This document shows positions 29,463-44,194 of a stretch of 56,113 nucleotides of DNA, piece after piece. The first letter of the stretch is position 1. Every line of letters begins with the position of its first letter. The position numbers were made by a program, and so were the translations under genes. Source of the stretch: Ignavibacteria bacterium (GTDB lineage Bacteria; Bacteroidota; Ignavibacteria; Ignavibacteriales; Ignavibacteriaceae); NCBI GenBank assembly GCA_030684555.1, contig JAUXVN010000094.1:1-56113 (forward strand), in the 5' to 3' direction. A model generated the notes under the pieces. The model saw only the letters and a list, made by a program, of their open reading frames with translations, searched no databases and was not told the DNA's origin.

Positions 29463-30017
29463 ATGGAAAATGAAAAATCAAACGAATGGCATTGGTTTAA
29501 AGGTGGACTGCTTGTATCACTTTTATCGGTAGCTACATATTTTATTTTCGCAGCAATTGCAGATCGTAACTATCCCTTTGGTGTTACCGCAGGTTTTGGA
29601 TTTATCGCAGCAAAATTTGGTTCACTATTTAGTGGATTAAATGAAAATCCTGTTATCAAAAGATTTGGTGAAAAACCTGATGCTTTCATCGAGTTTTTCT
29701 TAATAATCGGTTTAATTATTGGAGGATATACTGCTTCAAAATTGTCCGGAAATTTTAAGTCAGAAACTATTCCGGCAGAGTGGGTAAAGTACCACGGAAA
29801 AAGTATTGTCAAACGGTACGTTTTCGTTTTTGTAGGAAGTCTTCTGCTCGGTTATGGTGCTGCTTTAAGCTCGGGTTGTACCACGGGAAATATTTTACAA
29901 GGTTGGGCACACCTTTCACTCGGAAGTATGGTCGCGGGAGCTTCTTTCTTTGTAGCGGGAATTATAACCGCAAAAATATTATATCCAAAGGTAGGGGGTA
30001 GTGATGGCACTAATTAA
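29463..30017 (+). CDS. YeeE/YedE-type sulfur transport half-protein A
   Basis: A 184-residue membrane protein with about five hydrophobic segments. The motif LLGYGAALSSGCTTGNILQG is the conserved Cys-containing signature of YeeE/YedE, which carry thiosulfate or other sulfur species across the membrane through conserved cysteines. It overlaps the following half-protein, and together they match the length of one full YeeE. Its place in an arsenic island suggests supply of reduced sulfur or transport of a thiolated compound (inference). Confidence 0.85.
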   Translation: MENEKSNEWHWFKGGLLVSLLSVATYFIFAAIADRNYPFGVTAGFGFIAAKFGSLFSGLNENPVIKRFGEKPDAFIEFFLIIGLIIGGYTASKLSGNFKSETIPAEWVKYHGKSIVKRYVFVFVGSLLLGYGAALSSGCTTGNILQGWAHLSLGSMVAGASFFVAGIITAKILYPKVGGSDGTN

Positions 30018-30546
30018 TATTGTATTCGGATTGGTGGTCGGTTTTATTTTTGGATTTATTCTAAGTAAAACCGGTATAACTAAGTATAATCGAGTAATGG
30101 GGATGCTGCTCTTGAAAGATTTCAAAATATTGAAATTTATGTTAACGGCTGTAACTTTTTCTATGATTCTATTCTATCTACTTGGTGATTTTGGGCTTCT
30201 TAAAGTTGTTTCTAAAAATCTTGATTGGGGAAAACTGGTCGGAGGATTAATATTCGGAACGGGAATGGGTTTACTTGGTTATTGTCCCGGTACAATGGCA
30301 GCAAGAATTGGTGAAGGGAAAAAGGAAGCAATATTCGCATTATTTGGTATGTCTTTGGGCATTTTAATTTATGCTTTATCAATTAAATATGTGAAAACCG
30401 CCTTTCTATCAAGCGAGATAAGTGGTGACATTTTTTCGCTATTTGGATTAAACAAATGGCTTATAATAATTCCGGCAGCACTGATATTTGTCGGTATAAT
30501 TTATTTCGTAAATAAAAAATTTAGTGATAATGAAAAAATATTTTAA
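30004..30546 (+). CDS. YeeE/YedE-type sulfur transport half-protein B
   Basis: About 180 residues, membrane-embedded, with GTGMGLLGYCPGTMAARIGEG, the second-half Cys motif of the YeeE/YedE family. The ATG at 30004 is placed 5 nt after GGGGG (29994-29998) and overlaps the end of half-protein A by 14 bp, so the two are translationally coupled and probably form one transporter. The GTG at 30001 is less likely. Confidence 0.82.
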   Translation: MALINIVFGLVVGFIFGFILSKTGITKYNRVMGMLLLKDFKILKFMLTAVTFSMILFYLLGDFGLLKVVSKNLDWGKLVGGLIFGTGMGLLGYCPGTMAARIGEGKKEAIFALFGMSLGILIYALSIKYVKTAFLSSEISGDIFSLFGLNKWLIIIPAALIFVGIIYFVNKKFSDNEKIF

Positions 30547-30554
30547 ACATTAGA

Positions 30555-30857
30555 ATGAAATCAGTAAAAATAGAAATACAATATTTTAATGGTTGTCCAA
30601 ATTCTCAGACGATGATAGACCGAGTTAAAGAGGCAATTACAAATTCAAAAATTAAAATTGATTATAAAGAAATTTTGGTTGAATCGTCGGAGTATGCAGA
30701 TAAAATTAAATTCAGAGGTTCACCTACACTATTAATAAATAATATTGATTTTGAAGAGTTACCTGAGCCGGTACAAGGAAGTCTCTCGTGCAGATACTAT
30801 CCGAATGGTATTCCGGATATGCAACTGATTTTAAAAAGAATAAAGGAGTTCAAATGA
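30555..30857 (+). CDS. Thioredoxin-fold protein with CPNS motif
   Basis: A 100-residue protein with [20 protein letters not shown] and [19 protein letters not shown], then a Cys in [11 protein letters not shown]. The pattern is that of a thioredoxin-like group sometimes mislabelled alkylmercury lyase. Only one Cys is present in the active-site position (CPNS), so it is more likely a thiol carrier or metal(loid) binder than a two-Cys reductase. Its stop overlaps the Acr3 start (ATGA). Confidence 0.75.
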
Positions 30858-31939
30858 GTTCACTAACTAAAAAACTTTCATTTTTAGATAGATACTTAAC
30901 ACTATGGATTTTTCTTGCTATGTTTATCGGAGTTTTCTCCGGTTATCTTTTCCCACAAGTAGTTGATTTCTGGAATTCATTTCAAAGCGGCACAACTAAT
31001 ATTCCGATTGCAATCGGTTTAATTTTGATGATGTATCCTCCGCTTGCAAAAGTTAAATATGAAGAGTTGGGTGATGTTTTCAGAAATACAAAAATTTTAA
31101 TCTTATCACTTGTCCAAAATTGGATTATCGGTCCAATACTAATGTTTGTGCTTGCAGTTGTTTTTCTACCTGATTATCCTGAATACATGGCGGGACTAAT
31201 AATGATAGGACTTGCACGATGCATAGCAATGGTCATCGTTTGGAACGAACTTGCAAAAGGAGATACTGAGTATGCCGCAGGATTGGTCGCGTTCAATTCC
31301 ATATTCCAAGTTTTATTTTTCTCTGTTTATGCTTACGTCTTTTTGACGGTTCTACCTTCATGGCTCGGACTTCAGACATTTGCTGTTGACATAACAATCG
31401 GACAGATTGCTGAATCAGTTTTAATCTATCTCGGGATTCCTTTTATTGCGGGAATGATAACCCGATTCACATTACTAAAACTCAAATCAAAAGAATGGTA
31501 TGAGAAGAAATTCATTCCCAAAATCTCACCGATAACATTAATTGCATTATTGTTTACAATTGTTGTAATGTTTTCATTAAAAGGTGAATACATTGTAAAA
31601 ATTCCGTTGGATGTTGTAAGAATAGCTATTCCGCTTCTCCTTTACTTTGTGATAATGTTTCTAGTTTCTTTCTATATGGGAAAGAAGGTGGGAGCAGATT
31701 ATTCAAAAACCGCTACTCTTTCATTCACGGCGGCAAGTAACAATTTTGAGTTGGCGATTGCTGTTGCTATTGCAGTATTCGGTATTAATAGTGGTGAAGC
31801 ATTTGCTGCAGTAATTGGACCTTTAGTTGAAGTACCGGTTCTCATTGCTTTAGTTAATGTGGCGTTGTTCTTTCAGAGAAAATATTTTAAAGGCGAAGTT
31901 GAAAAAGGTGATGTAAAAGCGCCGGATGTTTGTCCTTAA
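30854..31939 (+). CDS. acr3: Acr3-family arsenite efflux permease
   Basis: Ten-segment arsenite exporter of the Acr3 (BASS-related) family: [20 protein letters not shown], then [20 protein letters not shown] with the conserved Cys needed for As(III) transport, and [21 protein letters not shown] near the end. The ATG at 30854 overlaps the preceding stop and has AAAGGAG in front; the longer frame from 30788 is rejected. Exports the arsenite produced by ArsC. Confidence 0.94.
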
Positions 31940-32070
31940 TTGTAGTGGTGCATATAATGATGGGTTGAAGAACATATCATTATCTTGTACTTGTTTCAAA
32001 TATGGAAACTTGTTAATAGCAGGTTGATTTATATGTTGGAAAAAATAAATTTAATAGAAAAAGTAGTCCA

Positions 32071-32697
32071 ATGATAAAATATTTAATTTTAATAATGTTA
32101 ACATTTGTTACTCATAACAGTGCTCAAGATCATTCAGCAGATATTCGAGGGTTAATAAGTAAAATTAATATTGGTCTTCAAAATTCAAATTTGCCCGATG
32201 AAAGTACGCTCAATTTAATTGATAGCTCAATCAGTTTAATCGAATCAAATTTCAGAGGAAAAATAGATATATCAGAATTTAAGGAAGAGTATTTGGGTTT
32301 TAAAGAATTCTCTAAGCTCAATCCAAGAATTGATACACTTAAAAAAGTATTTCGTTCTGTTAACAATAAATTCAACTCTCTGTTTGGGACTGTTTTTTTT
32401 AACGCCATTTTAAATTCTTCAAAGCAAAAAATCATCGTATTCTCAACCTCTATGTCATGCGAATGTACTCTTGATATGTGCTACGAACAAGAAGTGGTTG
32501 TCCAAAATCTGTTGGAGGATAAAAATCTAAATACTGATTATGTGGTGATTGATTGCTTTTCAAATACTGAATTACAAGCTGAATATCAGGTTGGTTTTAT
32601 TCCGACAGTTCTGATTCTTGATTCAGCTAATAAAGAAGTAAAAAGCTTTGTGAGAGATGAAAATTTGTTAGTCAATTTATCAGAAATAATAAAATAG
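32071..32697 (+). CDS. Exported thioredoxin-fold-like protein, Cys-rich
   Basis: Signal peptide ending near VTHNSAQD, a helical stretch, then a thioredoxin-like half from about residue 120: KQKIIVFSTSMSCECTLDMC followed by NTDYVVIDCFSNTELQAEYQ and GFIPTVLILDS, where IPT matches the cis-Pro loop. The Cys pattern CEC-x4-C departs from CxxC, so its chemistry is uncertain. Gap 31940-32070 holds no gene. Lies at the head of a second tight gene run. Confidence 0.6.
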   Translation: MIKYLILIMLTFVTHNSAQDHSADIRGLISKINIGLQNSNLPDESTLNLIDSSISLIESNFRGKIDISEFKEEYLGFKEFSKLNPRIDTLKKVFRSVNNKFNSLFGTVFFNAILNSSKQKIIVFSTSMSCECTLDMCYEQEVVVQNLLEDKNLNTDYVVIDCFSNTELQAEYQVGFIPTVLILDSANKEVKSFVRDENLLVNLSEIIK

Positions 32698-32704
32698 AGG
32701 AATT

Positions 32705-33031
32705 ATGAACCCCAAAACACCAATGGAACTATTAAAACACTTTGCCCCTGAATTTGCTGAAAACCAAATGCAGGAAAAGTCTCTCATAATGGAGAATAAA
32801 AAAAATCAGAAAGTGCCAAATAAGTACAAAATGTTAATTGGAATAGGAGTTGCGGCTACATTAGGAAGTGATACTTGCACACAAATGTGGACTAAAATGG
32901 CAAAGCAAAACGGCGTAACAAACGAAGAAATTGTTGAGGCAATGCAAGTCGCACGTTATATGAAACAAGCAACCGTAAATGATACAATTGCGAACTCTTT
33001 AAATCTTCTAATAGAAAAGGATAACCTATGA
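32705..33031 (+). CDS. Carboxymuconolactone-decarboxylase/AhpD-like small protein
   Basis: A 108-residue helical protein of the AhpD/CMD type: KYKMLIGIGVAATLGSDTC with TQMWTKMAKQNGVTNEEIVE and AMQVARYM. Family redox members have CxxC (then H); here only one Cys (SDTCTQMW) remains at that place, so a disulfide reductase role is doubtful. It overlaps the next small gene by 4 bp and belongs to the thiol cluster. Confidence 0.7.
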   Translation: MNPKTPMELLKHFAPEFAENQMQEKSLIMENKKNQKVPNKYKMLIGIGVAATLGSDTCTQMWTKMAKQNGVTNEEIVEAMQVARYMKQATVNDTIANSLNLLIEKDNL

Positions 33032-33306
33032 AATTTGAAGTAAATAACTCCGGGAGTGATTTAATAATTAACATAGAGATACCCGATAAATACAAAGAAA
33101 AATTGCTGGAAGAATTCAGTAATTGCCAACAAGGAAAATGTTCTTGCCCGACTGAAGAGTATAAGAAGTTAGAATCTTTAACTGTCGAGACAGATGAGAA
33201 CAAAGTATCTTTAACATTGAAGTCAAGATTAGGTCAAAGTATTGATATCAGTGAAATAAATAAATGCCTTAATTACACATCAAATAAAATCGAGGAAGAC
33301 AGATGA
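33028..33306 (+). CDS. Small Cys-rich protein of the arsenic/thiol island, function unknown
   Basis: A 92-residue soluble protein whose central feature is FSNCQQGKCSCPTEEYKKLE, three closely placed cysteines, plus one later Cys (NKCLNY). I recall similar CQxGxCSCPT proteins in other metalloid islands but know no function; a metal(loid) binding or chaperone role is a guess. Overlaps its neighbours on both sides by 4 bp, so it is made with the AhpD-like and thioredoxin-like proteins. Confidence 0.6.
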   Translation: MKFEVNNSGSDLIINIEIPDKYKEKLLEEFSNCQQGKCSCPTEEYKKLESLTVETDENKVSLTLKSRLGQSIDISEINKCLNYTSNKIEEDR

Positions 33307-33539
33307 CTTCAGTAAAAATACTTGGTACAGGTTGCAAAAAATGTCAAACACTCGAACAAAGAGTTAGAGACTTAGTTTCTCAAAATAATATTGATGTTGT
33401 CATTGAAAAAGTGACGGATATTAATGAGATGATGAACTACGGAATTATGATGACACCGGGTCTCGTTGTAAACGAAAAAGTTGTCAGCTCGGGAATCATA
33501 CCTAAAGATGATCAAATTTTAAATTGGTTAAGGAGTTAA
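33303..33539 (+). CDS. Small thioredoxin-fold protein (TM0996/MTH895 type), second copy
   Basis: A 78-residue redox protein with active site GTGCKKCQTLEQRVRDL and the loop MMTPGLVVNEKVVSSGIIP, clearly related to the protein at 29210-29452. The sequence around the second half is very similar (TPGLxVNxKxxSSGxIP), so it arose by duplication. Lies 3 bp before the exported thioredoxin gene. Confidence 0.88.
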   Translation: MTSVKILGTGCKKCQTLEQRVRDLVSQNNIDVVIEKVTDINEMMNYGIMMTPGLVVNEKVVSSGIIPKDDQILNWLRS

Positions 33540-33542
33540 ACT

Positions 33543-33938
33543 ATGAAAAAGGGGATTTTATTTTTATCTGTTCTGTTGATTTTAACTTTCAGTCTATCTG
33601 CCTTTAAGTTTGATGAAACAAAAGATGCTAAAAAAAATTCGGTCAAACCAAAAGTTACTTTCGTTGAACTCGGCTCAGTAAATTGTATTCCATGCAAACA
33701 AATGCAGCCGGTTATGAAAGCTATTGAACGAAAATATGGTGATCAAGTAAAAGTTATCTTTTATGATGTATGGACACAAGAACAAAAAAAATACGCAAAT
33801 CTATACAAGATTAAACTGATTCCCACTCAAGTCTTTTTGGATGAAAACGGAAAAGAATTTCATCGGCATGAAGGGTTTTATCCGGAAACTGAAATCGACA
33901 AAATCCTTACTAGTAAAGGATTAAAAGCGAAAAAGTAA
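33543..33938 (+). CDS. Exported thioredoxin-like protein
   Basis: A signal peptide or anchor (LFLSVLLILTFSLSAFKF) precedes a thioredoxin domain with ELGSVNCIPCKQMQPVMKAI and KLIPTQVFLDENGKEFHRHE. The active site CIPC and the following CcdA suggest that it receives electrons from CcdA and acts on disulfides in the periplasm. RBS AGGAG lies before the ATG. Confidence 0.9.
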   Translation: MKKGILFLSVLLILTFSLSAFKFDETKDAKKNSVKPKVTFVELGSVNCIPCKQMQPVMKAIERKYGDQVKVIFYDVWTQEQKKYANLYKIKLIPTQVFLDENGKEFHRHEGFYPETEIDKILTSKGLKAKK

Positions 33939-33969
33939 TCTTTTCTTAAATTGCACTCAGGGGTGAATA

Positions 33970-34671
33970 ATGTTCGAAGGCCTTTTTAATTATTTATATG
34001 AATCGATGATGGGAGCTTTCTGGCTCGCTACTATTACATCATTTGTTTGGGGAGTTTTATCAATTCTATTATCTCCTTGTCACCTATCAAGTATTCCTTT
34101 AGTTGTTGGTTATATAAGTTCACAAGGAAAAATTTCGTTATCACGGACTTTCTACATCTCATTAGTTTTTTCACTTGGAATTTTAATTACGATTGCAGCA
34201 ATTGGAATCATAACCGCATCGTTGGGAAGATTGATGGGGGATGTAGGGGAGATTGGTAATTATCTTGTCGCCGGAATTTTCTTTATCGTTGGACTTTATT
34301 TGTTAGATATTATAAAGTTCGACTGGAATACTTCAGGTCTAAAAAGAACAAAATCGAAGGGATTGGTTGCTGCACTTGTTCTGGGACTTCTATTTGGAAT
34401 AGCTTTGGGACCTTGTACTTTTGCATATATGGCTCCGGTTCTCGGAATTGTATTTCAAACGGCACAGACCGATTATTTTTCGGCAATGATTCTTTTAATT
34501 GCTTTTGGTGTTGGACATTGTGCGGTTATTGTCGGAGCCGGAACTTTGGCAGGAAAAGTTCAGAAGTACTTAGATTGGTCGGAAGAATCTAAAACTTTAA
34601 TTTGGATTAAAAGAGTTTGCGGAATTTTAGTAATATTGGGTGGATTTTATTTAATCTTAACGGTAGCATAA
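33970..34671 (+). CDS. ccdA: CcdA-type transmembrane thiol-disulfide carrier
   Basis: Six-segment membrane protein of the CcdA/DsbD-beta family. The paired conserved cysteines are visible in SILLSPCHLSSIPLVVGYI and GIALGPCTFAYMAPVLGIV. It passes reducing equivalents from cytosolic thioredoxins to periplasmic ones, linking the small cytosolic thioredoxins of the island to the exported thioredoxin encoded just upstream. At 233 residues it is a normal CcdA. Confidence 0.92.
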   Translation: MFEGLFNYLYESMMGAFWLATITSFVWGVLSILLSPCHLSSIPLVVGYISSQGKISLSRTFYISLVFSLGILITIAAIGIITASLGRLMGDVGEIGNYLVAGIFFIVGLYLLDIIKFDWNTSGLKRTKSKGLVAALVLGLLFGIALGPCTFAYMAPVLGIVFQTAQTDYFSAMILLIAFGVGHCAVIVGAGTLAGKVQKYLDWSEESKTLIWIKRVCGILVILGGFYLILTVA

Positions 34672-34674
34672 AAA

Positions 34675-35997
34675 TTGGAAGAACAAAAAACAGACATAAT
34701 ATTAAATTCCTTAGCTGAAGGAGTAATAACAGTTGATAGGGAATTTAAGATTACATTTATAAATCAGGCGGCCTCCTTTATGACGGGTTTTCAAAAGGAT
34801 GAAGTAATTGGAAAGATTTGTAAAAATATTTTTAAGTCGGACTACTGTGCTGATAATTGTCCGATTGCACGAATATTGAAGTATGGAAAAAGTATTTTTG
34901 ATTACGATAGTAAAATTGAATGTAAAGATGCAAGTCCAATTCCAATTCGATTAAACGCTGCGCTACTAAAAGATGAATTGGATAATCCGGCAGGCGGTGT
35001 GATCACTTTCAGGGATTTATCCATTCTAAAAAAAATTGAGGGTATGCTTAAGCAGGATTCTAACTTTCACGGAATAATATCTAATTCTAAAAGTATGAAA
35101 GAGATATTTACACTAATTGAGCAAATTTCTGATTCCGATGCCCCGGTTCTGATTACTGGTGAAACAGGAACCGGAAAGGAACTTATAGCCGACGCTATCC
35201 GAAATTTGAGTAGAAGAAAAAATAATAAATATGTAAAGGTAAACTGCTCGGTTATTCCAGATAATTTATTAACAAGCGAGTTATTTGGGCACGCTAAAGG
35301 AGCATTCACTGATGCACACAAGGAAAGAGTTGGACGTTTTGAACTTGCAGATGGCGGAACAATATTTTTAGATGAGATAGGAGAAATGCCTCTCCAAATG
35401 CAGCCGCAAATCTTAAGAGTAATACAAGATGGAACATTTGAGAGACTTGGTGAATCACTTACAAAATACGTTGATGTTAGAATAATTACTGCAACAAATA
35501 CTAATTTGGAAAAAGCGATTGCTGATGGTAAGTTCAGAGAGGATTTATTTTATCGATTAAACGTAATTCACATCAACCTGCCCCCTTTAAGAAAACGGAT
35601 GGATGATATCCCCCTTCTTGCAAATCATTTCTTAAAAAAGTTTACGATTATTTATAAAAAAAATATCCCATTTATTGAAAATGAATGTTTAGAACATTTA
35701 ACAAGAAGCTATTGGCATGGTAACATCCGTGAACTTGAAAATGCAATAGAGTATGCGGTAATTAGAAATAAGCCTGATAAGAGCTTGTGCATTTGTGCTT
35801 TTCCTTCTAAGATAAGAGAAAACATTTTTTGCAGTCAAAAAAACAATGTTATTCCGAATACTGTTTTACCGTTTGAAAATGCTTCTCTACTCGAGTTATT
35901 GAATCAGCATAAATGGAATAAAACAAAAGTTGCTCAAATTTTAGGTATTGATAGAACAACACTCTGGCGTAAGTTAAAAGCTATGGGAGTAAAATAG
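34675..35997 (+). CDS. PAS-domain sigma-54-dependent activator (NtrC-type, Fis HTH)
   Basis: Domains in order: PAS (about 8-118) with a Cys group (Cys49, 58, 62, 83 in NIFKSDYCADNCPIARILKY), AAA+ (about 130-365) with Walker A GETGTGKE (162-169), the RpoN-contact loop GAFTDA (209-214; usual GAFTGA) and Walker B IFLDEIGE (230-237), and a Fis-type helix-turn-helix ending NKTKVAQILGIDRTTLWRKL. No receiver domain, so it is not phosphorylated by a kinase; it should sense through PAS, maybe redox or metal(loid) via the cysteines. Starts with TTG 3 bp after ccdA. Two sigma-54-like promoters with palindromic sites lie just downstream and are its probable targets. Confidence 0.92.
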   Translation: MEEQKTDIILNSLAEGVITVDREFKITFINQAASFMTGFQKDEVIGKICKNIFKSDYCADNCPIARILKYGKSIFDYDSKIECKDASPIPIRLNAALLKDELDNPAGGVITFRDLSILKKIEGMLKQDSNFHGIISNSKSMKEIFTLIEQISDSDAPVLITGETGTGKELIADAIRNLSRRKNNKYVKVNCSVIPDNLLTSELFGHAKGAFTDAHKERVGRFELADGGTIFLDEIGEMPLQMQPQILRVIQDGTFERLGESLTKYVDVRIITATNTNLEKAIADGKFREDLFYRLNVIHINLPPLRKRMDDIPLLANHFLKKFTIIYKKNIPFIENECLEHLTRSYWHGNIRELENAIEYAVIRNKPDKSLCICAFPSKIRENIFCSQKNNVIPNTVLPFENASLLELLNQHKWNKTKVAQILGIDRTTLWRKLKAMGVK

Positions 35998-36032
35998 AAT
36001 TCAGAAGTCTAAATCGTTACTCTCAACGAATA

Positions 36033-36108
36033 GTTGCAGAGATTCTAACTTAATAACATTGAATAAATCATAAGACAATAGCACATAATGTTGCAATAAC
36101 TGTACAAC
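36033..36108 (+). promoter_or_regulatory. GTTGCA motif cluster upstream of first sigma-54 promoter
   Basis: GTTGCA occurs at 36033-36038 and 36090-36095, the latter opposed by TACAAC at 36103-36108. They lie 42-117 bp before the -24 box at 36149, matching the position of activator sites. The same half-site recurs upstream of the second promoter. Confidence 0.4.
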
Positions 36109-36145
36109 AGTAACTCTCAATTTTTCCACAAGAACCCAATATTTA

Positions 36146-36164
36146 TTAGGCAGGCTATTTGCAT
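36146..36164 (+). promoter_or_regulatory. Sigma-54-like promoter 1
   Basis: AGGCAG, five bases, TTTGCA: GG at 36149-36150 and GC at 36161-36162 have the fixed 12-base offset, with a perfect TTGCA -12 box. Predicted start near 36173. It drives a stub ORF that copies the start of the TPR gene (29 bp from GG to ATG in both). Confidence 0.55.
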
Positions 36165-36177
36165 AAGTTATTGCACT

Positions 36178-36234
36178 ATGAGTGAAATGTTAGTTAATCA
36201 TTATTTTTATCGAGTGAGTTCTCCTCAGCTGTAA
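36178..36234 (+). pseudogene. Stub copy of the TPR gene N-terminus
   Basis: Reads MSEMLVNHYFYRVSSPQL then TAA. The intact gene at 36651 starts MSEMLGNHYFQLRNF. Similarity at DNA level spans the first 11 codons, then stops. It is either the remnant of a duplicated operon start or a short ORF within a small regulatory RNA. A hairpin and T-run end the possible transcript at 36346-36388. Confidence 0.5.
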
Positions 36235-36345
36235 AGCTTTAAACCGACCCTGCGTAAATTTAAGCGAATGCAAAAAATGGTTTTCCTCATGAAATATCTT
36301 GGTCCAAAATTAACTCAATAGTAGTTAGTTAATTTCATAAGTGAT

Positions 36346-36388
36346 ATCCAGTAAATCTCTGAGAACTAAATACTGGATGGTGCTTTTT
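36346..36388 (+). terminator. Candidate terminator/attenuator
   Basis: ATCCAGTA (36346-36353) pairs with TACTGGAT (36371-36378), loop 17 nt, followed by GGTGC and TTTTT (36384-36388). Placed about 215 bp after the first sigma-54-like start site. The rest of the 36000-36650 gap holds only the listed promoters and palindromes. Confidence 0.45.
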
Positions 36389-36487
36389 ATTATTATAAAA
36401 CGTACCTATAATCCATCAGAATTTCCCCTTTTTAAACTCATTCTTACGTTAGTCTACAATTGGCACAAAGCTGTTTCTGTTGCGAAT

Positions 36488-36501
36488 GTTGCAATTGCAA
36501 C
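36488..36501 (+). promoter_or_regulatory. Palindromic activator site (distal)
   Basis: GTTGCAATTGCAAC is a perfect 14-bp palindrome about 120 bp before the second -24 box. A related GTTGCG lies at 36479-36484. Probably bound by the adjacent sigma-54 activator. Confidence 0.5.
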
Positions 36502-36563
36502 AATTTATTGCATTTGAATAATTGATTGATATTTAATCTATTTTCAATTAAATCTCAAAGTAG

Positions 36564-36580
36564 TGCAACAGTTTGTTGCA
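36564..36580 (+). promoter_or_regulatory. Palindromic activator site (proximal)
   Basis: TGCAAC, five bases, GTTGCA: perfect 6-bp arms, about 42 bp before the second -24 box. Same half-site as the distal palindrome. Confidence 0.5.
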
Positions 36581-36620
36581 ATTTATATTTTAATTTTATC
36601 AAAAATCGAAGGATTATTTT

Positions 36621-36637
36621 TGGCAAAATAATTGATT
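36621..36637 (+). promoter_or_regulatory. Sigma-54-like promoter 2
   Basis: TGGCA with TTGAT 12 bases on: GG at 36622-36623, GA instead of GC at 36634-36635, so a slightly weak -12 box. GG to ATG (36651) is 29 bp, the same as in promoter 1. The untranslated leader would be only a few bases long. Confidence 0.45.
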
Positions 36638-36650
36638 ACTAAACTGAATG

Positions 36651-37121
36651 ATGAGCGAAATGTTAGGCAACCACTACTTTCAATTAAGAAATTTTGTACT
36701 TGCAGAAAGTACATACGAAAAGTTATCCCAAAATCAATTAAGCGATGTTAACATTTTAAAAAGATTAATAATTTGTTACACCCAAACCAACAAATTAGAT
36801 AAAGCCTTAGAGCTGCTAATCCTCCTGATTAAAAAAGATATTAACACAATTCTAAACAGCAATCGTAAAGACGAAGATTGCCCATGCAATGATTTAATAA
36901 CAAAAATAGAAACCGGTGAAATAACTTATTCAAATAGGTATGAAACATTGACCGCATTGGGAATTCTTCATCTATACAGTAATTATAAAAACTCAATAAA
37001 ATATTTTAAAATGGCTATAAAGCAAAATTCAAATAAACAATTGTTAAATGAAGCTTTCAAAATTCTAAAAATAACAGTTCAAAAAAATATAGTACAAACA
37101 AAAAAAATGGAGCTAAAATGA
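36651..37121 (+). CDS. Small TPR-type helical repeat protein
   Basis: About 156 residues with TPR-like helices: NHYFQLRNFVLAESTYEKL, ILKRLIICYTQTNKLDKALE and ETLTALGILHLYSNYKNSIK with YFKMAIKQNS. No signal peptide, so cytosolic; one Cys pair in KDEDCPCND. The stop overlaps the start of the exported protein (ATGA), so the two are coupled; it may act as an export chaperone or assembly factor for that protein (inference). Start is ATG 36651, matching the stub copy, or ATG 36648 just before. Confidence 0.6.
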   Translation: MSEMLGNHYFQLRNFVLAESTYEKLSQNQLSDVNILKRLIICYTQTNKLDKALELLILLIKKDINTILNSNRKDEDCPCNDLITKIETGEITYSNRYETLTALGILHLYSNYKNSIKYFKMAIKQNSNKQLLNEAFKILKITVQKNIVQTKKMELK

Positions 37122-38236
37122 AAAAGAACGTTACACGAAAAGACTTTTTAATGAATACTGGAAGAGCTGCTGTCGGAATAACTGCTGTTGCCGGGCTTTC
37201 AAGCATTGTTACATTCGCAAATACTCAGGCTAAAACAAAAATAACTGCCTGGCCCTGGTCTTATGCACAGTTAGATGTTGAAGCTGTTAGGATCCAAGCG
37301 CATAATCTTTACTGGAATGATAAAGATTGTGCTTCCGGTGTATTTGGTGCGCTTGTAAATGCTCTTTCTACTTCTATTGGAGATCCATGGACAAATATGC
37401 CAATGGAAGTGATGCTTTTTGGCAGAGGTGGTGGAAATGCATGGGGTACATTGTGCGGCTGTTTAAATGGAGGTGCTGCTTTAATTAGTTTAGTAACAAC
37501 TAAAGCTCAATCAGGGGCACTCATAAATGAGTTATGGGGGTGGTACACTCAAGCCGAATTACCAACTGACCAAGCAAACCAGGTCGCAATAAATGGGCAG
37601 TATCTTGTACATAACTATGATCAGGATTTACTTCAGAATATTTCTGGAAGCCCACTTTGCCACACCTCTGTAACTGAATGGTGTATTGTTGCTAATAAAA
37701 AAGTTAGTGACGTTGAAAGAAAAGAAAGATGTGCTCGTATAACAGGTGACATTGCAGCAAAAACTGCAGAAATACTTAATGCCTTCTTTGCAAACTCATT
37801 TGTATCAACATATGTTGATCCAGCCTCTGTTACTGCTTGCCTTAGCTGTCACGGTAGCGCCGTATTTAATAATGTAATGACAAAAATGGAGTGCGCTCCT
37901 TGTCATTTAACAGCACATGGTGGTTTGGCAGTTGAGCCGGTTGCTGGAATCGCAACAACATTTGCACTTAGCCAAAATTATCCTAATCCTTTTAACCCTA
38001 GTACAAAAATTCAATTTTCAGTTCCAAATACAGAAAAGGTTAAAGTTGAGGTTTATGATATTCAAGGATCGCTTATTAAAACCCTTGTTGATTATGATTT
38101 GTATCAACAAGGTAATTATGAAGTGATGTGGGATGGTACAGATAATAACGGAAAGCGTGTATCAAGTGGAATTTATTTTACAAAGATGCAGGCTGGTAAA
38201 TTTGCTCAGACGAAAAAGATGAATCTTGTAAAATAA
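37118..38236 (+). CDS. Exported C_GCAxxG_C_C-type redox protein with two CxxCH motifs and T9SS sorting domain
   Basis: N-terminus TRKDFLMNTGRAAVGITAVA is a Tat-like leader with RK for RR. The body fits the C_GCAxxG_C_C family: Cys71 (DCASGVFGAL), Cys113/115 (TLCGCLNGGAALISL), Cys181, Cys189 and Cys205. Then come CLSCH (241-245) and CAPCH (259-263), possible haem c or metal sites, and a T9SS domain from about 283 (SQNYPNPFNPSTKIQFSVPN) ending KMNLVK. The mix of Tat-like leader, multi-Cys core, CxxCH pair and T9SS tail is unusual. Probably a surface redox or metal(loid)-handling protein under sigma-54 control; exact role unknown. Confidence 0.75.
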   Translation: MKKNVTRKDFLMNTGRAAVGITAVAGLSSIVTFANTQAKTKITAWPWSYAQLDVEAVRIQAHNLYWNDKDCASGVFGALVNALSTSIGDPWTNMPMEVMLFGRGGGNAWGTLCGCLNGGAALISLVTTKAQSGALINELWGWYTQAELPTDQANQVAINGQYLVHNYDQDLLQNISGSPLCHTSVTEWCIVANKKVSDVERKERCARITGDIAAKTAEILNAFFANSFVSTYVDPASVTACLSCHGSAVFNNVMTKMECAPCHLTAHGGLAVEPVAGIATTFALSQNYPNPFNPSTKIQFSVPNTEKVKVEVYDIQGSLIKTLVDYDLYQQGNYEVMWDGTDNNGKRVSSGIYFTKMQAGKFAQTKKMNLVK

Positions 38237-38267
38237 AAAAATCTATAAAAGTTAAATTGGGGAGTAG

Positions 38268-38304
38268 GGCTGTCTCTTGAGTAATTTCTGAGACAGCCTT
38301 TTTT
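38268..38304. terminator. Strong terminator between convergent genes
   Basis: GGCTGTCTC (38268-38276) pairs with GAGACAGCC (38290-38298), loop 13 nt, then TTTTTT (38299-38304). Ends the sigma-54 locus; may also serve the M1 peptidase gene coming from the other side. Confidence 0.85.
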
Positions 38305-38316
38305 ATTCCATCAATA

Positions 38317-40281
38317 TTACTTAATCAAAACAAGTTTTTTTGTTGAGACTAAATCATCTGCTTTAAGTTCGTAGAAATAAATTCCGCTTGTTAAATCAGA
38401 TGCATCAAACTCAGTTTTATAAGTCCCTTGATTTTTATATTCACTAACTAATGTTTGAACTTCTTTTCCCAGAAAGTCATAAACTTTTAATGTTACAAAT
38501 GAATTGTTAACGATCTGCCAGCTTATTGTAGTTATCGGGTTAAACGGGTTCGGATAGTTTTGTCCCAAATAAAATTCCGAAGGGATATCTTTAATATCAT
38601 CTATATTAGTTACAGTTGCATTCTTCAAAATATAATTATTCGGATCAAGAATTAATTGTTGAGGGGTTCCTCTTACAATCAACTCAAAATTTTGGATTTG
38701 GTTGTCATTAAATACTGTGATTATCGTATCTGTTATCGAGGTGAGTATTTTTATCTGAATCGGCATTGTAAAATATGTCGGATTATTATGACTACTTTGT
38801 GTTATTGAGAGATTAATTTTATTCAACTCACCACCGGCAGGGATGTAATTCCAATTAACATTATAAGTCGGATAACCGGTTCCATAAATCCATTGTTGAA
38901 AGAAATAATCCATCGGTTTCATCAATATTGCTTCTGTTGCAATTTGGAAGTCTTCAGTTGTTGCAACATTATATGCTAAATGAGGCTGACTATTATAATG
39001 TTTCATTATTTGAAAAAATAAACTATCACCCGTAATCCCTCTTAGCATATGTAAAATCATTGCTCCTTTTGCGTAAGTTCGGTTGTAGTTAAAAATACTA
39101 GATACGCTGCTTATATCTTGCGCATAAACCGAACCTGATGCCAACTTTGCCTGATTCATTTTTCCGGTTATATATTGATCAAATCGTGTTTCCCCATAAT
39201 AATTTTGTAAAAATATTCCTTCCGAATAAGTTGCAAAACCTTCATTGAGCCAAATATTTTGCCAATCTTTACATGTAACCTTATCTCCAAACCATTGATG
39301 AGCAAGCTCGTGCGCAATAATTGTCTCTGAAAACGCACCCATTGATGAAATAGTTTGATGTTCCATTCCGCCGCTAAAACCACATTCAGCGTGACCATAT
39401 TTTTCTCTTATGAATGGATATTCACCATAGGTACCCGTAAAAATTTCAAGTATTGAAATTGTTTTATCAAGATTAGTTTTGTAGGACGTGAAGTTTTCGG
39501 GATAAATGTAATGTACAACGGGCATTGAATCTGATTGTGAATAGTTGAAGTGAGTAAGATATTCGTGATAGTTGGAGATTGCTACCGAAATTAAATAATG
39601 AGCAATCGGATATGAGTTTTTCCATTTATAAGTTTTTGTTAAATCACCATTATCAATAACATCAATTAATTTCCCGTTAGAAACTGCAAACAATGTTGAA
39701 GGAACTCTTACATACACATCAGAAGAATCTGCTTTATCTGCCGGAGTATCTTTGCATGGAAACCATTCGCTTGTTCCATAAGGTTCACTCAATGACCAAA
39801 TAACCGGTTCACCATTATGCTGGCTAAATACAAAACTTCCAAATCCACTTGTTCCGGGGACACCCGCATACTCGATGTCAGTTGTAAACTGTTCCAACAT
39901 TGTATAAACTCGATCAAGTTGAATTTGCAGCTTATTATTTGAATGAGTAAATGATACGTTGTTATCATTAATCTTAACTGAAGATACAGTGAATGAATTA
40001 TTCAAATCAAAAAAAACAGATAACAAGTCCGGCATTACCACGGATGAAATTATTCTGACTTTTCCGGTGATAGAATTGGGTTGAAGAAATGTTTGAAGTT
40101 CGAGTCCGTAATATTTGATATCAATGGATTCATCCCCGGGATAATTTACATTTTTAGCAAGTAATGCTTTTATGTAACTCCCTTTTCTTGAGCATTCAGA
40201 TTCTTCCAGTTCATTTTGACTATAAGAAAAGGATGTAAAAAAAAGTACGGTGGTTAAAAGAGTGAAGTGAAAAAATTTCAT
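38317..40281 (-). CDS. Secreted M1-family zinc aminopeptidase with T9SS sorting domain
   Basis: Signal peptide ending near FSYSQ. M1 signature: GGMEH (304-308; a variant of GAMEN), HELAH (324-328) and the third zinc ligand Glu347 in WLNEGFATY, 19 residues on. The C-terminus has GQNYPNPFNPITTISWQIV and KKLVLIK, the T9SS sorting domain. It should remove N-terminal residues from peptides outside the cell. 654 residues is short for M1 because the long C-terminal helical domain is replaced by the sorting domain. Confidence 0.92.
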   Translation of the reverse strand: MKFFHFTLLTTVLFFTSFSYSQNELEESECSRKGSYIKALLAKNVNYPGDESIDIKYYGLELQTFLQPNSITGKVRIISSVVMPDLLSVFFDLNNSFTVSSVKINDNNVSFTHSNNKLQIQLDRVYTMLEQFTTDIEYAGVPGTSGFGSFVFSQHNGEPVIWSLSEPYGTSEWFPCKDTPADKADSSDVYVRVPSTLFAVSNGKLIDVIDNGDLTKTYKWKNSYPIAHYLISVAISNYHEYLTHFNYSQSDSMPVVHYIYPENFTSYKTNLDKTISILEIFTGTYGEYPFIREKYGHAECGFSGGMEHQTISSMGAFSETIIAHELAHQWFGDKVTCKDWQNIWLNEGFATYSEGIFLQNYYGETRFDQYITGKMNQAKLASGSVYAQDISSVSSIFNYNRTYAKGAMILHMLRGITGDSLFFQIMKHYNSQPHLAYNVATTEDFQIATEAILMKPMDYFFQQWIYGTGYPTYNVNWNYIPAGGELNKINLSITQSSHNNPTYFTMPIQIKILTSITDTIITVFNDNQIQNFELIVRGTPQQLILDPNNYILKNATVTNIDDIKDIPSEFYLGQNYPNPFNPITTISWQIVNNSFVTLKVYDFLGKEVQTLVSEYKNQGTYKTEFDASDLTSGIYFYELKADDLVSTKKLVLIK

Positions 40282-40352
40282 ATTTGGTCTATCATTTGTT
40301 ATTGAGAGACCAAATATGCTAATAAAATAAACTAATTTGAAATGTGAGGAAT

Positions 40353-41066
40353 TTAGAAATTCCCGAATGAACTAAAGTATGCAACAACACCTAAGTTTGC
40401 GGTAATCAAGTCAGTTTTTGAACGGGAAGTATAGTATGTAACTCTTCCTGTGGATGGGTTAACCTCAACCGAACCTTCCTTAAGATATTCTGCGGTTGAG
40501 CCTTTTAACATTCTAACTTTTAGATCAACATAAATTTTCCCGAGGTTTTCATCAGGATTTTCGTAGACTTTAAACATGATTCCGCCACCAAAACCATAAC
40601 TCCAAGCCCAGTCATCAAAGTTGGTTGAACTTGTAACTTCTTCACCTTTATTTGTTGAGATAACTTTAGTTTCGGTGAAAAGATATGAACCACCAAAAAG
40701 TAAATCAACATACGGTCTGACCACATTCATTGTCGGAGCTATTCTAAACAGAAGGTGAAATTGCATGATGTTATAGCTTCTATCAACATCAACAGTTACA
40801 TCCGGTATTGTGTGACTCCATGGAGCTCTTCGGCTTTCATTACCGTAATTTAAAAAACTGAAATTTGCTCCGATTCCAAAAGGAGAGTATTCATTTGGTC
40901 CTAAAAAAAGTCCTTCTACACTTAATCCTAAACCGGTTTGTTTGAGTTGATCCTTGAATTCTCCATCCGGAAAAGCAAGTGTAAAATTCAATCCGCCTGA
41001 TTGTCCAAATGTTGATGAAGATATTACAAATATTATTATGATTAAAAAGTATTTTCTTACGAACAT
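40353..41066 (-). CDS. Outer-membrane beta-barrel protein, function unknown
   Basis: Signal peptide ending near SSTFGQSG; the rest is strand-rich with Gly/aromatic alternation (LNFTLAFPDGEFKDQLKQTG, WSYGFGGGIMFKVYENPDEN) typical of outer-membrane beta-barrel domains (OMP_b-brl type). Terminal segment VVAYFSSFGNF ends in Phe. No partner gene is evident. Confidence 0.65.
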   Translation of the reverse strand: MFVRKYFLIIIIFVISSSTFGQSGGLNFTLAFPDGEFKDQLKQTGLGLSVEGLFLGPNEYSPFGIGANFSFLNYGNESRRAPWSHTIPDVTVDVDRSYNIMQFHLLFRIAPTMNVVRPYVDLLFGGSYLFTETKVISTNKGEEVTSSTNFDDWAWSYGFGGGIMFKVYENPDENLGKIYVDLKVRMLKGSTAEYLKEGSVEVNPSTGRVTYYTSRSKTDLITANLGVVAYFSSFGNF

Positions 41067-41457
41067 GATATTCCCTTATTATTTTGAAAAATTGAGTTGT
41101 TAAGATAATGAAAACAAAAAAGACTTTTGGGTGTAAATGATGGAAATATGTACTTTTAGGATGAAAAGTATTTATGGATTTTTAACGGTCACAGGAATAA
41201 ATTTCTTTTTGAAATGCTAATTCTACATACTAACAAAATAGCATACATAAATTAAGTGAAGAAGAATATTTATGGGAGCAATAACCTATTGGGGATTTAT
41301 TCTATGGAATTATCTGATAAACTTTTAGAACAGTTATAGAAAAATTTCTCGACTATCAAGTCCTTCAATATCATAATAAGAAAAGAGGGTGAAATTAAAA
41401 AACTGATGAAAGCATCCATAGAAAAAGAAACGGTCGTTTAATTCAATGGTTTTCCAT
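41067..41457. other. Gene-free interval
   Basis: No intact gene. On the plus strand 41304-41444 there are short in-phase pieces (MELSDKLLEQL, later EGEIKKLMKASIEKETVV) that might be a decayed small gene, but no clear homology was recognised. Confidence 0.3.
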
Positions 41458-42039
41458 TTAGATTCTTAGAGATAGAATAAAATTCATACTTTCATTAGTT
41501 ACATCATAATTACTGTTACCAATTGTTATTTCACCATAAGTAGTACTGTACAATAATTTTACCTGGATTCGCCTGTTTATCTCGGTAGTTAAGCCTATTG
41601 CATGATATATCCCATGTCCTTTCTTATCAATTTTACCGTCAGTTTGTAAGAATGAAGGACCTAACCTGAATGAGAGTTGAAGCGGAAAACTTTCTCTATT
41701 AGTCAACGGAAAATCGATGTAAGTATATATTGGTAAATTCCCGAGTTTTCCCTCTAATGCATTTATAGAACTTGGGAACTGGTAAAGAAATCCGATTCCA
41801 TAGTTCATACTGTTTTTATATCTTACAACCCATTCTAAACCTGCTGCAATACTATTATTCTTAAAATAATGATTCTTACCGGTAGAATGAGCTAAACTAA
41901 AAGTCTGTTCAGTATTTACTTGTAAGTTTATGCGAAGATTTCTGAATATTATACTTCTGCTTGCAAATGTACTATCAGCATCTTGAGAATAAATAACAAC
42001 TGCATTTAATAACATTATGAATAATAATAACCTTTTCAA
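41458..42039 (-). CDS. Exported strand-rich protein, function unknown
   Basis: Signal peptide ending near AVVIYSQD, then 170 residues with alternating strands (NSMNYGIGFLYQFPSSIN, LQLSFRLGPSFLQTDGK, RRIQVKLLYSTTYGEITIG) ending NFILSLRI. Likely an outer-membrane barrel. No family recognised. The gap 42040-42224 holds no gene. Confidence 0.55.
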   Translation of the reverse strand: MKRLLLFIMLLNAVVIYSQDADSTFASRSIIFRNLRINLQVNTEQTFSLAHSTGKNHYFKNNSIAAGLEWVVRYKNSMNYGIGFLYQFPSSINALEGKLGNLPIYTYIDFPLTNRESFPLQLSFRLGPSFLQTDGKIDKKGHGIYHAIGLTTEINRRIQVKLLYSTTYGEITIGNSNYDVTNESMNFILSLRI

Positions 42040-42224
42040 ATTGTCTCCCTTTAATTGCTTATGGTTTTGGTTAGCCCTATTAAATGATCAAAAAAACATT
42101 TTGTGTAGATGATTTTTTCTTTTATCAAAACTATCATAAAAAGTATAGTTTGTCAACATTAGATTATAATTACATAAATTCCTTATTGAAACATTGTCTG
42201 GTCCAAGTTTGGTTACATGAAACC

Positions 42225-43094
42225 TCATTGTGGAACAATATTTAAGACAGATTTTGAATACGAAAAAATATCGTATTGTGTTATTGCATTTTTCTTCAAA
42301 TCATAATTAGAAATGAATAGTTCTTTACCAATCCGATTCGATTCCTTATTAACGTTACGCATTCCATAAGTTAAGTTCCAAGGTAGTATGTTGGCAAATG
42401 AAAAAAGGTTTTTAATATAATCGCTATCGTCATATGTAATCAACCATTTATGCTTAGTCCCTTTCATGACATTTGCAAATCTTTCGTGATCAAATGTTTT
42501 GTGAAGTGTCCCATTTTTGCCATATAATGCAGATTTTGTAGCTGAGTAATAAGGTGGGTCGAGGAATAAAAAAACATCTTCGCCCTCTTTTGAAACTACT
42601 TCTTCATAGTCATAGTTAGAAATTTTTGTATTCACTAAAATATTTGATAGAGATTTTACTCTTTCGATGCTTGATTGAGTAAACCGTTTTTGAAAAGCTG
42701 CATTTGAAAAACCTCCACTTTCAGTTGTACCGGAAAATGTAATCCTATTGAAAATAAAAAAAGCTGTTGCTTTTTTTATACTGTCAAATGAATCTATATT
42801 GTTTGATAAAAACCTATACAATTCTTTGCCATCAGGATATTTAACTCGAAGTTCAAGAATTGAATCAATAAGTACTTTCGGATTTTCTTTACACTCATTC
42901 CAAAAATGAAAAAGATTTTTATAAATATCATTTATCCAAAAATCCTTCCGGGGAAATTTTTGTTTTAAATGAATGAAAACTGAACCTCCTCCGACAAAAG
43001 GCTCTCTAAATTCCTTAAAATCTGGAACTAATCTTGAAATTGAATCTATTGCTCTGCTCTTTCCACCGGGATATCTAAGAGGACTTTTAATCAT
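42225..43094 (-). CDS. D12-class DNA adenine methyltransferase (Dam-like) of an R-M system
   Basis: N6-adenine methyltransferase, alpha class (D12/MethyltransfD12): SPLRYPGGKSRAIDSI at the N-terminus, REPFVGGGSVFIHLK (SAM site), the catalytic LFLDPPYYSATK (DPPY), and GKELFISNYDL at the end. It overlaps the restriction gene stop by 4 bp, so it is the last gene of a three-gene R-M operon read right to left. Its sequence specificity cannot be read from the sequence. Confidence 0.9.
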   Translation of the reverse strand: MIKSPLRYPGGKSRAIDSISRLVPDFKEFREPFVGGGSVFIHLKQKFPRKDFWINDIYKNLFHFWNECKENPKVLIDSILELRVKYPDGKELYRFLSNNIDSFDSIKKATAFFIFNRITFSGTTESGGFSNAAFQKRFTQSSIERVKSLSNILVNTKISNYDYEEVVSKEGEDVFLFLDPPYYSATKSALYGKNGTLHKTFDHERFANVMKGTKHKWLITYDDSDYIKNLFSFANILPWNLTYGMRNVNKESNRIGKELFISNYDLKKNAITQYDIFSYSKSVLNIVPQ

Positions 43095-44194
43095 TTTCTT
43101 ACCCCTTCAATAATAACTTCAAAATTATTTGTATTGGCTTCCGAAAAAAGTTTATCAATAAACTCTTTACTGTTCTTACTAAAACCAACACGGGATTTGA
43201 ACTCTTCGATTTCTGAAGCCAAACTAAGTGAAGTAATCTTCCCTAAAATATTCGTCGAAGTTAACCTCAGAACTGGCTTTGGAGTATATACGGAATCATT
43301 TATTTTCACATCTGTTAAATTACAGTATAAAACCATTTTCAATAAGCCGTCTTTGATATCTCCGATACTTGGCAATTTAGAATTGCCAGAATGTTTGCCC
43401 TCAATTAAACACAAATTTTTGTCAGATAGGGAAATTTCATCAGTAGTAAAATAGTACTTGCCACCAAGATAGTTTTCGATTGTGATAGTCGCTTTTGTTG
43501 ATGTGGATAAAAACTCTTTCGGCTGTATAGTTTGTATTTCTCTATTCTGAGCTTCTCTTGCTTTATTTCTTGAAGCAGTCATAAATTCAGCTACACCCTT
43601 TTGGAATTGGTCTTTAAAGCGTACTATTCCTTGCGAATTATGAAATTTAACTTGCAATTCTTTTTCAAGACGGGTATATGCTTCTTGAACTCTATCAATT
43701 AGTAATGGAAGGGTCTCAGATATTTCTTTCAAATTCCAATGTAATGCTGAACTATGATAATTACTGATTTCCAATATCTTTTTCTTTACATAATCATTGT
43801 CAAACTGTTGCCTGGTAATCTTGTGCTCTCTAGAACGGTGTCTTGCTGCATTATTGTAAAAGGCAAAGATAACATAGACATCCAGGAGACTCATCAACGA
43901 AACGGTATCCCATTGGATAAAGTCGCGGTCTCCATTTAATCCTTCATCTTTAATAATTGGTATTACTGTAATTCTTTTGGGAACATTCAGTGAATTATAA
44001 ACCCTTTCGAAGGGATAAGAGCGGGTTCGTTTTGGTGAAACCCATTTCGAAATTCCATAGTTATACTGTTTGTAGTTTATTAAAGAACAAGAAGGGGCAA
44101 AATTAATATCGAAATCGTCAAATTCAATATCAGTTAATTCATCTGTGCATTTTACAGCATATGAAATTCCGATGATTTTGGCAGAGATGTTCAT
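43091..44194 (-). CDS. Probable type II restriction endonuclease (PD-(D/E)XK-like)
   Basis: About 367 residues, soluble. A possible nuclease core is YYFTTDEISLSDKNLCLIEG followed by KH, giving D-x(n)-E-G-K (Asp252, Glu265, Lys267 from this start). Lying between two DNA methyltransferases and overlapping one by 4 bp, it is almost certainly the restriction enzyme. I place the start at ATG 44194, 4 bp after the upstream methyltransferase stop with AAGGAA ahead of it; the longer frame from 44275 would overlap that gene by 77 bp. Family not recognised. Confidence 0.65.
   Translation of the reverse strand: MNISAKIIGISYAVKCTDELTDIEFDDFDINFAPSCSLINYKQYNYGISKWVSPKRTRSYPFERVYNSLNVPKRITVIPIIKDEGLNGDRDFIQWDTVSLMSLLDVYVIFAFYNNAARHRSREHKITRQQFDNDYVKKKILEISNYHSSALHWNLKEISETLPLLIDRVQEAYTRLEKELQVKFHNSQGIVRFKDQFQKGVAEFMTASRNKAREAQNREIQTIQPKEFLSTSTKATITIENYLGGKYYFTTDEISLSDKNLCLIEGKHSGNSKLPSIGDIKDGLLKMVLYCNLTDVKINDSVYTPKPVLRLTSTNILGKITSLSLASEIEEFKSRVGFSKNSKEFIDKLFSEANTNNFEVIIEGVRK

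Follow-up and report, generated by a model that had tools for sequence, protein, structure and literature searches.

Why do a promoter and the start of a gene appear twice ahead of one TPR gene in this genome? In the window, as we call the whole stretch of 56,113 nucleotides analysed here (Ignavibacteria bacterium, contig JAUXVN010000094.1), the region 36146-36388 carries a promoter, a short reading frame and a hairpin, and a second promoter with a complete TPR gene is found downstream. The preliminary description saw in it either a stub operon, i.e. a duplication scar, or a sigma-54-dependent small RNA. We conclude that 36146-36388 is, with high probability, the functionless scar of a deleted operon. 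The idea of a scar is thus retained on account of the homology found at both ends, but its origin has to be changed: the tree and the cytochrome tail described below point to the deletion of an old sister operon instead of an abortive duplication.

The upstream promoter, P1 (TTAGGCAGGCTATTTGCAT, 36147-36163, plus strand), is of the -24/-12 type, with GG at 36149-36150 and GC at 36161-36162 (GG-N10-GC), and would have belonged to the lost operon; 14 of its 17 positions are the same in the closest relative found, genome G022 (locus L032). The ATG of the stub (36178) lies 29 nt past the first G of the GG, and the frame that it opens (MSEMLVNHYFYRVSSPQL, 36178-36234, plus strand) has 18 codons, as previously described, and a TAA stop at 36232-36234. 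The alignment with G022 assigns about ten codons at the head of this frame to the start of a TPR gene, TPR1. The resemblance of the two gene starts was also confirmed, MSEMLVNHYF in the stub and MSEMLGNHYF downstream, the latter reading MMSEMLGNHYF with an extra ATG. After the TPR1 codons come a deletion joint of about 40 nt (36213-36253, plus strand), a 3' remnant of a multihaem cytochrome gene that lacks the stop codon (36254-36294, plus strand) and the 3' flank of the same lost gene, which includes a hairpin and a T5 run (36346-36388, plus strand; 41 of 50 positions match G022 over 36341-36390). The hairpin, ATCCAGTA-(17 nt)-TACTGGAT at 36346-36378, has an 8-bp stem and a 17-nt loop. Together with the TTTTT it had been taken as the end of the stub; both elements are present (T5 at 36384-36388), but five nucleotides (GGTGC) stand between them, and a terminator consensus scan of 35900-36750 listed two terminator-like sites, neither of them this hairpin, for which reason we consider it a weak terminator candidate. 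Before P1 the alignment reveals a candidate site for the activator (36090-36108), to which binding is predicted: it is a dyad, GTTGCA-N7-TGCAAC, in G022, and its second arm reads TACAAC in the window.

The surviving operon has the same kind of elements. The activator gene (34675-35997, plus strand) codes for PAS, sigma-54 interaction (AAA+) and Fis-type HTH domains (Pfam PF13426, PF00158 and PF02954). P2, the -24/-12-type promoter of this operon (TTGGCAAAATAATTGATT, 36620-36637, plus strand), has its GG at 36622-36623 and is identical to G022 in all 19 positions of 36620-36638. Its -12 element, previously given as TTGC, is TTGA in the sequence; A has a frequency of 0.24 at that position in the matrix built from 38 promoters of the family. 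The TPR2 gene (36648-37121, plus strand; Pfam TPR_1) has two adjacent in-frame ATGs, at 36648 and 36651, located 26 and 29 nt from the P2 GG. The equal 29-nt distance claimed for both promoters therefore applies to P1 and to the second ATG behind P2, but not to the first. Two palindromes before P2 (36496-36580) are candidate activator sites: TGCAACAGTTTGTTGCA (36564-36580) is identical in G022 and TGCAACAATTTATTGCA (36496-36512) is not. The next gene (37118-38236, plus strand) codes for a split-Soret-like cytochrome c with a C_GCAxxG_C_C domain (Pfam) and a T9SS tail. The protein resembles split-Soret cytochrome c (NCBIfam NF047622) in a match across its residues 6-265, and differs from it by the T9SS tail and by a score of 163.3 bits that does not reach the cut-off of 400. 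A structure predicted for TPR2 with four sequences as input (mean pLDDT 79.0) retrieved no matches at E 0.001 or better in a fold search, the best matches being TPR proteins with E 0.02 and TM of about 0.3-0.4, and the model tells no more than a predicted TPR-like fold. Before the activator gene, 32705-34671 contains thioredoxin-like genes and the gene of a DsbD-TM/ArsG-like membrane protein, and similar genes occupy the corresponding place in G022.

G022 is the sole relative that spans the scar, and there an operon is found where the window has the stub. The order in G022 is P1, TPR1, a multihaem T9SS-tailed cytochrome, P2, TPR2 and the split-Soret-like cytochrome. Window positions 33284-36229 and 36254-38236 align to G022; the two segments are 24 bp from each other in the window, and their G022 counterparts 1758 bp. 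The 1758-bp interval contains TPR1 and a cytochrome of 469 aa with eight CXXCH matches and the T9SS tail. Homology was computed on either side of the joint. On the left, 36178-36212 matches G022 TPR1 at 33 of 35 positions with a 3-nt gap on the window side, and the stub is closer to this gene than to TPR2 of the window itself. On the right, 36254-36294 matches the last 13 or so codons of the G022 cytochrome gene at 35 of 41 positions, and the match runs on through the 3' flank to 36404 (87% over 151 nt, E 1.2e-46). The joint (41 nt), compared with the TPR1-cytochrome region of G022 and with window 30001-44000, gave a best local match equalled by 68 of 200 shuffles. The lost genes are absent from the assembly: the window genome, a draft of 152 contigs, has one TPR gene only, and an orthologue of the lost cytochrome was not found in it, the best match after removal of the tail being 29% over 163 residues. 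The spacing also fits, as the stub ATG is 183 nt from the activator, the same as for G022 TPR1 and equal to the family median, and TPR2 of the window is at 653 nt, the largest of 40 values. TPR1 of G022 has an apparent frameshift, which counts against the reading as a scar.

In the tree, TPR1 and TPR2 have separate ancestries. G022 TPR1 groups with TPRs found beside the same cytochrome type (L077 and L116, support 100/99), and the window TPR and G022 TPR2 group with TPRs paired with split-Soret-like cytochromes (L033 and L034, support 100/99). Since the two are on different supported branches, there was no fresh local duplication, and the two starts resemble each other as members of the same gene family do. 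In another genome, G046, a contig with an activator and a TPR gene breaks off within the split-Soret-like gene behind them, and a second contig starts inside such a gene, followed by a TPR gene and a cytochrome; this fits a tandem in the opposite order.

In the ancestor, then, a single activator gene would have stood ahead of two operons in tandem, P1-TPR1-multihaem cytochrome and P2-TPR2-split-Soret-like cytochrome. The window lineage would later have lost about 1.7 kb by deletion, most of TPR1 and nearly the whole cytochrome gene with it, leaving P1, some ten codons of TPR1, the joint of about 40 nt, the final cytochrome codons and the 3' flank of the cytochrome. Whenever the activator is active, transcription from P1 may still take place and would yield an RNA of about 215 nt that serves no purpose. 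Gene remnants arise by deletions within or between operons, and this scar shares with other remnants made in this way the homology to both ends, the lost frame and the absence of the genes elsewhere. It differs in that a promoter and a hairpin survived, which is why the remnant mimics a small-RNA gene.

Sequence conservation was compared along the locus. The P1 block (36111-36163) has 43 of 53 positions identical to G022 and the P2 block (36581-36638) 56 of 57 (Fisher p 0.003), for blocks that were picked once the alignment had been seen and compared in a single relative; 8 of 12 positions are identical in the stretch from P2 to the ATG. Identity at four-fold sites is 0.81 (108/133) in the activator gene and 0.85 (29/34) in TPR2. 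In the split-Soret-like gene (37118-38233) the corresponding value drops to 0.50 (63/127), mostly past codon 60, where a recombination boundary is possible. In the P1 region the base before the GG and one arm of the candidate dyad differ between the window and G022. Furthermore, the stub has V where 44 of the 62 TPR family rows have G and 17 have A, the last row, MSLMLGN, also having G. Counting against decay, P1 outscores P2 (17.4 and 16.9 bits, in a family range of 7.1-21.3 for 38 promoters), the stub keeps its 33 of 35 identical positions, and the segment directly after the activator gene (35998-36060) is 61/63 identical to G022, above the four-fold sites of the activator (p 0.0002). Since one relative covers the scar, loss of constraint is poorly measurable and the direction of the changes rests on the family consensus.

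The conserved segment 35998-36060 could be taken to mean that the surroundings of P1 are kept as regulatory DNA, serving P2 or the activator gene as a further place for the activator to bind, or acting as a decoy, or that the stub is the gene of a leaderless 18-codon peptide. We consider this improbable, given that the candidate dyad before P1 has an altered arm compared with the perfect one in G022, that P2 has palindromes of its own, and that the stub has V in place of the family G or A and a shifted frame. Even less probable is that the stub yields a small RNA of about 215 nt that depends on sigma-54 and has a function, with the TPR2 mRNA as a possible target, although P1 still looks like an active promoter and a hairpin with T5 lies downstream. 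Conservation of the stub in relatives had been proposed as a check. A second promoter-like site (at least 9/12) and a second M(S/N)EM(L/I) start were looked for in the 40 loci whose activator lies at most 800 nt away; the window was the one locus with both, and L069 had one extra 9/12 site and no second start. The RNA folds like its shuffles (z-score -0.49, with 60 of 200 folding at least equally well), and Rfam gave a single match in 35900-37200, below the threshold and beyond the stub, at 36447-36555. Pairing with the start of the TPR mRNA, another check proposed, was weak: with the TPR2 start as the target tried and 200 mononucleotide shuffles as control, the duplex reached -21.7 kcal/mol against a shuffle mean of -29.9, and 199 of the 200 shuffles were as low or lower. 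The look-alike sequences are of the same sense and not complementary. With P1 less conserved than P2 in addition, the proposal of a small RNA is left unsupported.

A local duplication of the promoter and start of TPR2 that was never a whole gene would account for the resemblance of both promoters and both starts. Its probability is minimal: the stub is closer to G022 TPR1 than to the TPR2 next to it, the 3' half of the stub region derives from a cytochrome gene, a full operon occupies this place in G022, and the tree parts TPR1 from TPR2. We regard local duplication as ruled out by the tree together with the cytochrome tail. An error of assembly is conceivable in a draft of 152 contigs and is credited by us with next to no weight, as the joint is located off repeats and links the start of a TPR gene to the end of a cytochrome gene through some 40 nt of unrelated sequence, the differences between the remnants and G022 are scattered, and no other part of the assembly was found to contain the lost genes. 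The deleted-operon scar is therefore the reading that we keep.

The comparison also revealed a module shared by many relatives. We searched 97 genomes and found the TPR gene in 45, the window genome included; 62 TPR genes were used out of 63 HMM hits, excluding the second piece of G022 TPR1, which lacks its own start. The activator ORF ends at most 800 nt upstream in 40 of the 62 (median 183). A promoter-like site, defined as GG plus at least 7 of 12 consensus positions, is found 25-29 nt before the ATG in 40/40 of these TPR genes directly behind the activator, which are not 40 independent cases because some rows are near-copies. Such a site was seen in 1 of 17 TPR genes with a farther activator (G022 TPR2) and in 2 of 5 where no activator was seen. 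When the last 50 nt were scanned with the distance left free, 38 of 59 upstream regions (window P1 included, and without four TPR genes of longer N-terminus that the start pattern missed) reached at least 8/12, all of them at 25-29 nt from the ATG, compared with 11 of 354 control tiles of 50 nt farther upstream. GTTGCA/TGCAAC, a candidate site for the activator, is present in 28 of the 40 gaps between activator and TPR gene; shuffles gave a mean of 5.3 and at most 11.

Like sigma-54 promoters served by an enhancer-binding activator, the module has GG-N10-G(C) and an adjacent PAS/AAA+/HTH activator gene, and from this we infer the use of sigma-54. It differs from them in the fixed position, 25-29 nt before the ATG throughout the directly linked TPR genes, and in a -12 element whose C is frequently replaced by a different base (0.46). 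The TPR family has four conserved cysteine columns (59, 60, 62 and 59 of 62 rows); at the fourth of them TPR2 of the window has Ser (36978-36980), a position with Cys in 59/62 rows and in G022 TPR2. A survey of 395 genomes of the phylum, in which up to nine candidates per genome were scored, detected the family in 30 (E 1e-8 or better), 29 in the order of the window and one, a weak match, outside it. From gene order one might guess that the TPR protein acts in cytochrome maturation or regulation. A second arrangement was observed in L084, L087, L090, L092, L096, L098, L099 and others, with the activator and a ten-haem cytochrome 2-5 kb upstream of the TPR gene; there the TPR gene lacks the sigma-54-type promoter and a terminator-like hairpin is often found shortly before its ATG.

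By convention the first G of the GG is position -25. With the GG located 25-29 nt before the ATG, the predicted leaders of the TPR mRNAs would be 0-4 nt long. We propose tentatively, and at somewhat less than even chances, that the TPR-cytochrome operons of Ignavibacteriales are under the control of a PAS/sigma-54 activator and have promoters fixed 25-29 nt before the AUG, that these mRNAs are leaderless or nearly so, and that the TPR protein, with its Cys...CPC...Cys, may work together with the cytochrome or the activator through thiols or a metal. The TPR family would resemble known leaderless mRNAs in having the AUG at or near the 5' end, and would differ in that the prediction concerns a single gene family whose promoters are of the sigma-54 type.

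Sinorhizobium meliloti is reported to have 171 leaderless mRNAs (PMC3616915), and in Flavobacterium psychrophilum 5.5% of the examined mRNAs are leaderless (PMC9723704). Excerpts of the literature on leaderless mRNAs, sigma-54, split-Soret cytochrome and Ignavibacteria, these two papers and PMC5243855 among them, did not yield a description of the module.

Elsewhere in the window genome the pattern TGGCAN6TTGC is found at 25 places, compared with 13 for the reversed-pattern control, so that about half of the sites may be due to chance. Among 23 of the 25, four have an ATG-started ORF at most 60 nt away that is not inside a longer ORF started upstream; the ATG lies 47, 50, 58 and 25 nt after the GG, and in the 25-nt case a longer in-frame start is found just before the site. 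Four cases are not enough to call the near-leaderless spacing a peculiarity of the TPR genes. At L147 (G000:C141:31567-31581) the pattern stands 25 nt before the ATG of a T9SS-tailed protein of 400-odd residues that is kelch-like by eye.

A deletion can thus leave a promoter, a start codon and a hairpin that mimic a small-RNA gene, and a single relative can be enough to distinguish the two. As a scar the region is ordinary, and the module that it revealed is more interesting. If the proposed design is true, P1 of the window would still yield a leaderless message of 18 codons, and the expression of these cytochromes would be tied to both sigma-54 and leaderless translation. The module makes this coupling testable in a defined set of genes.
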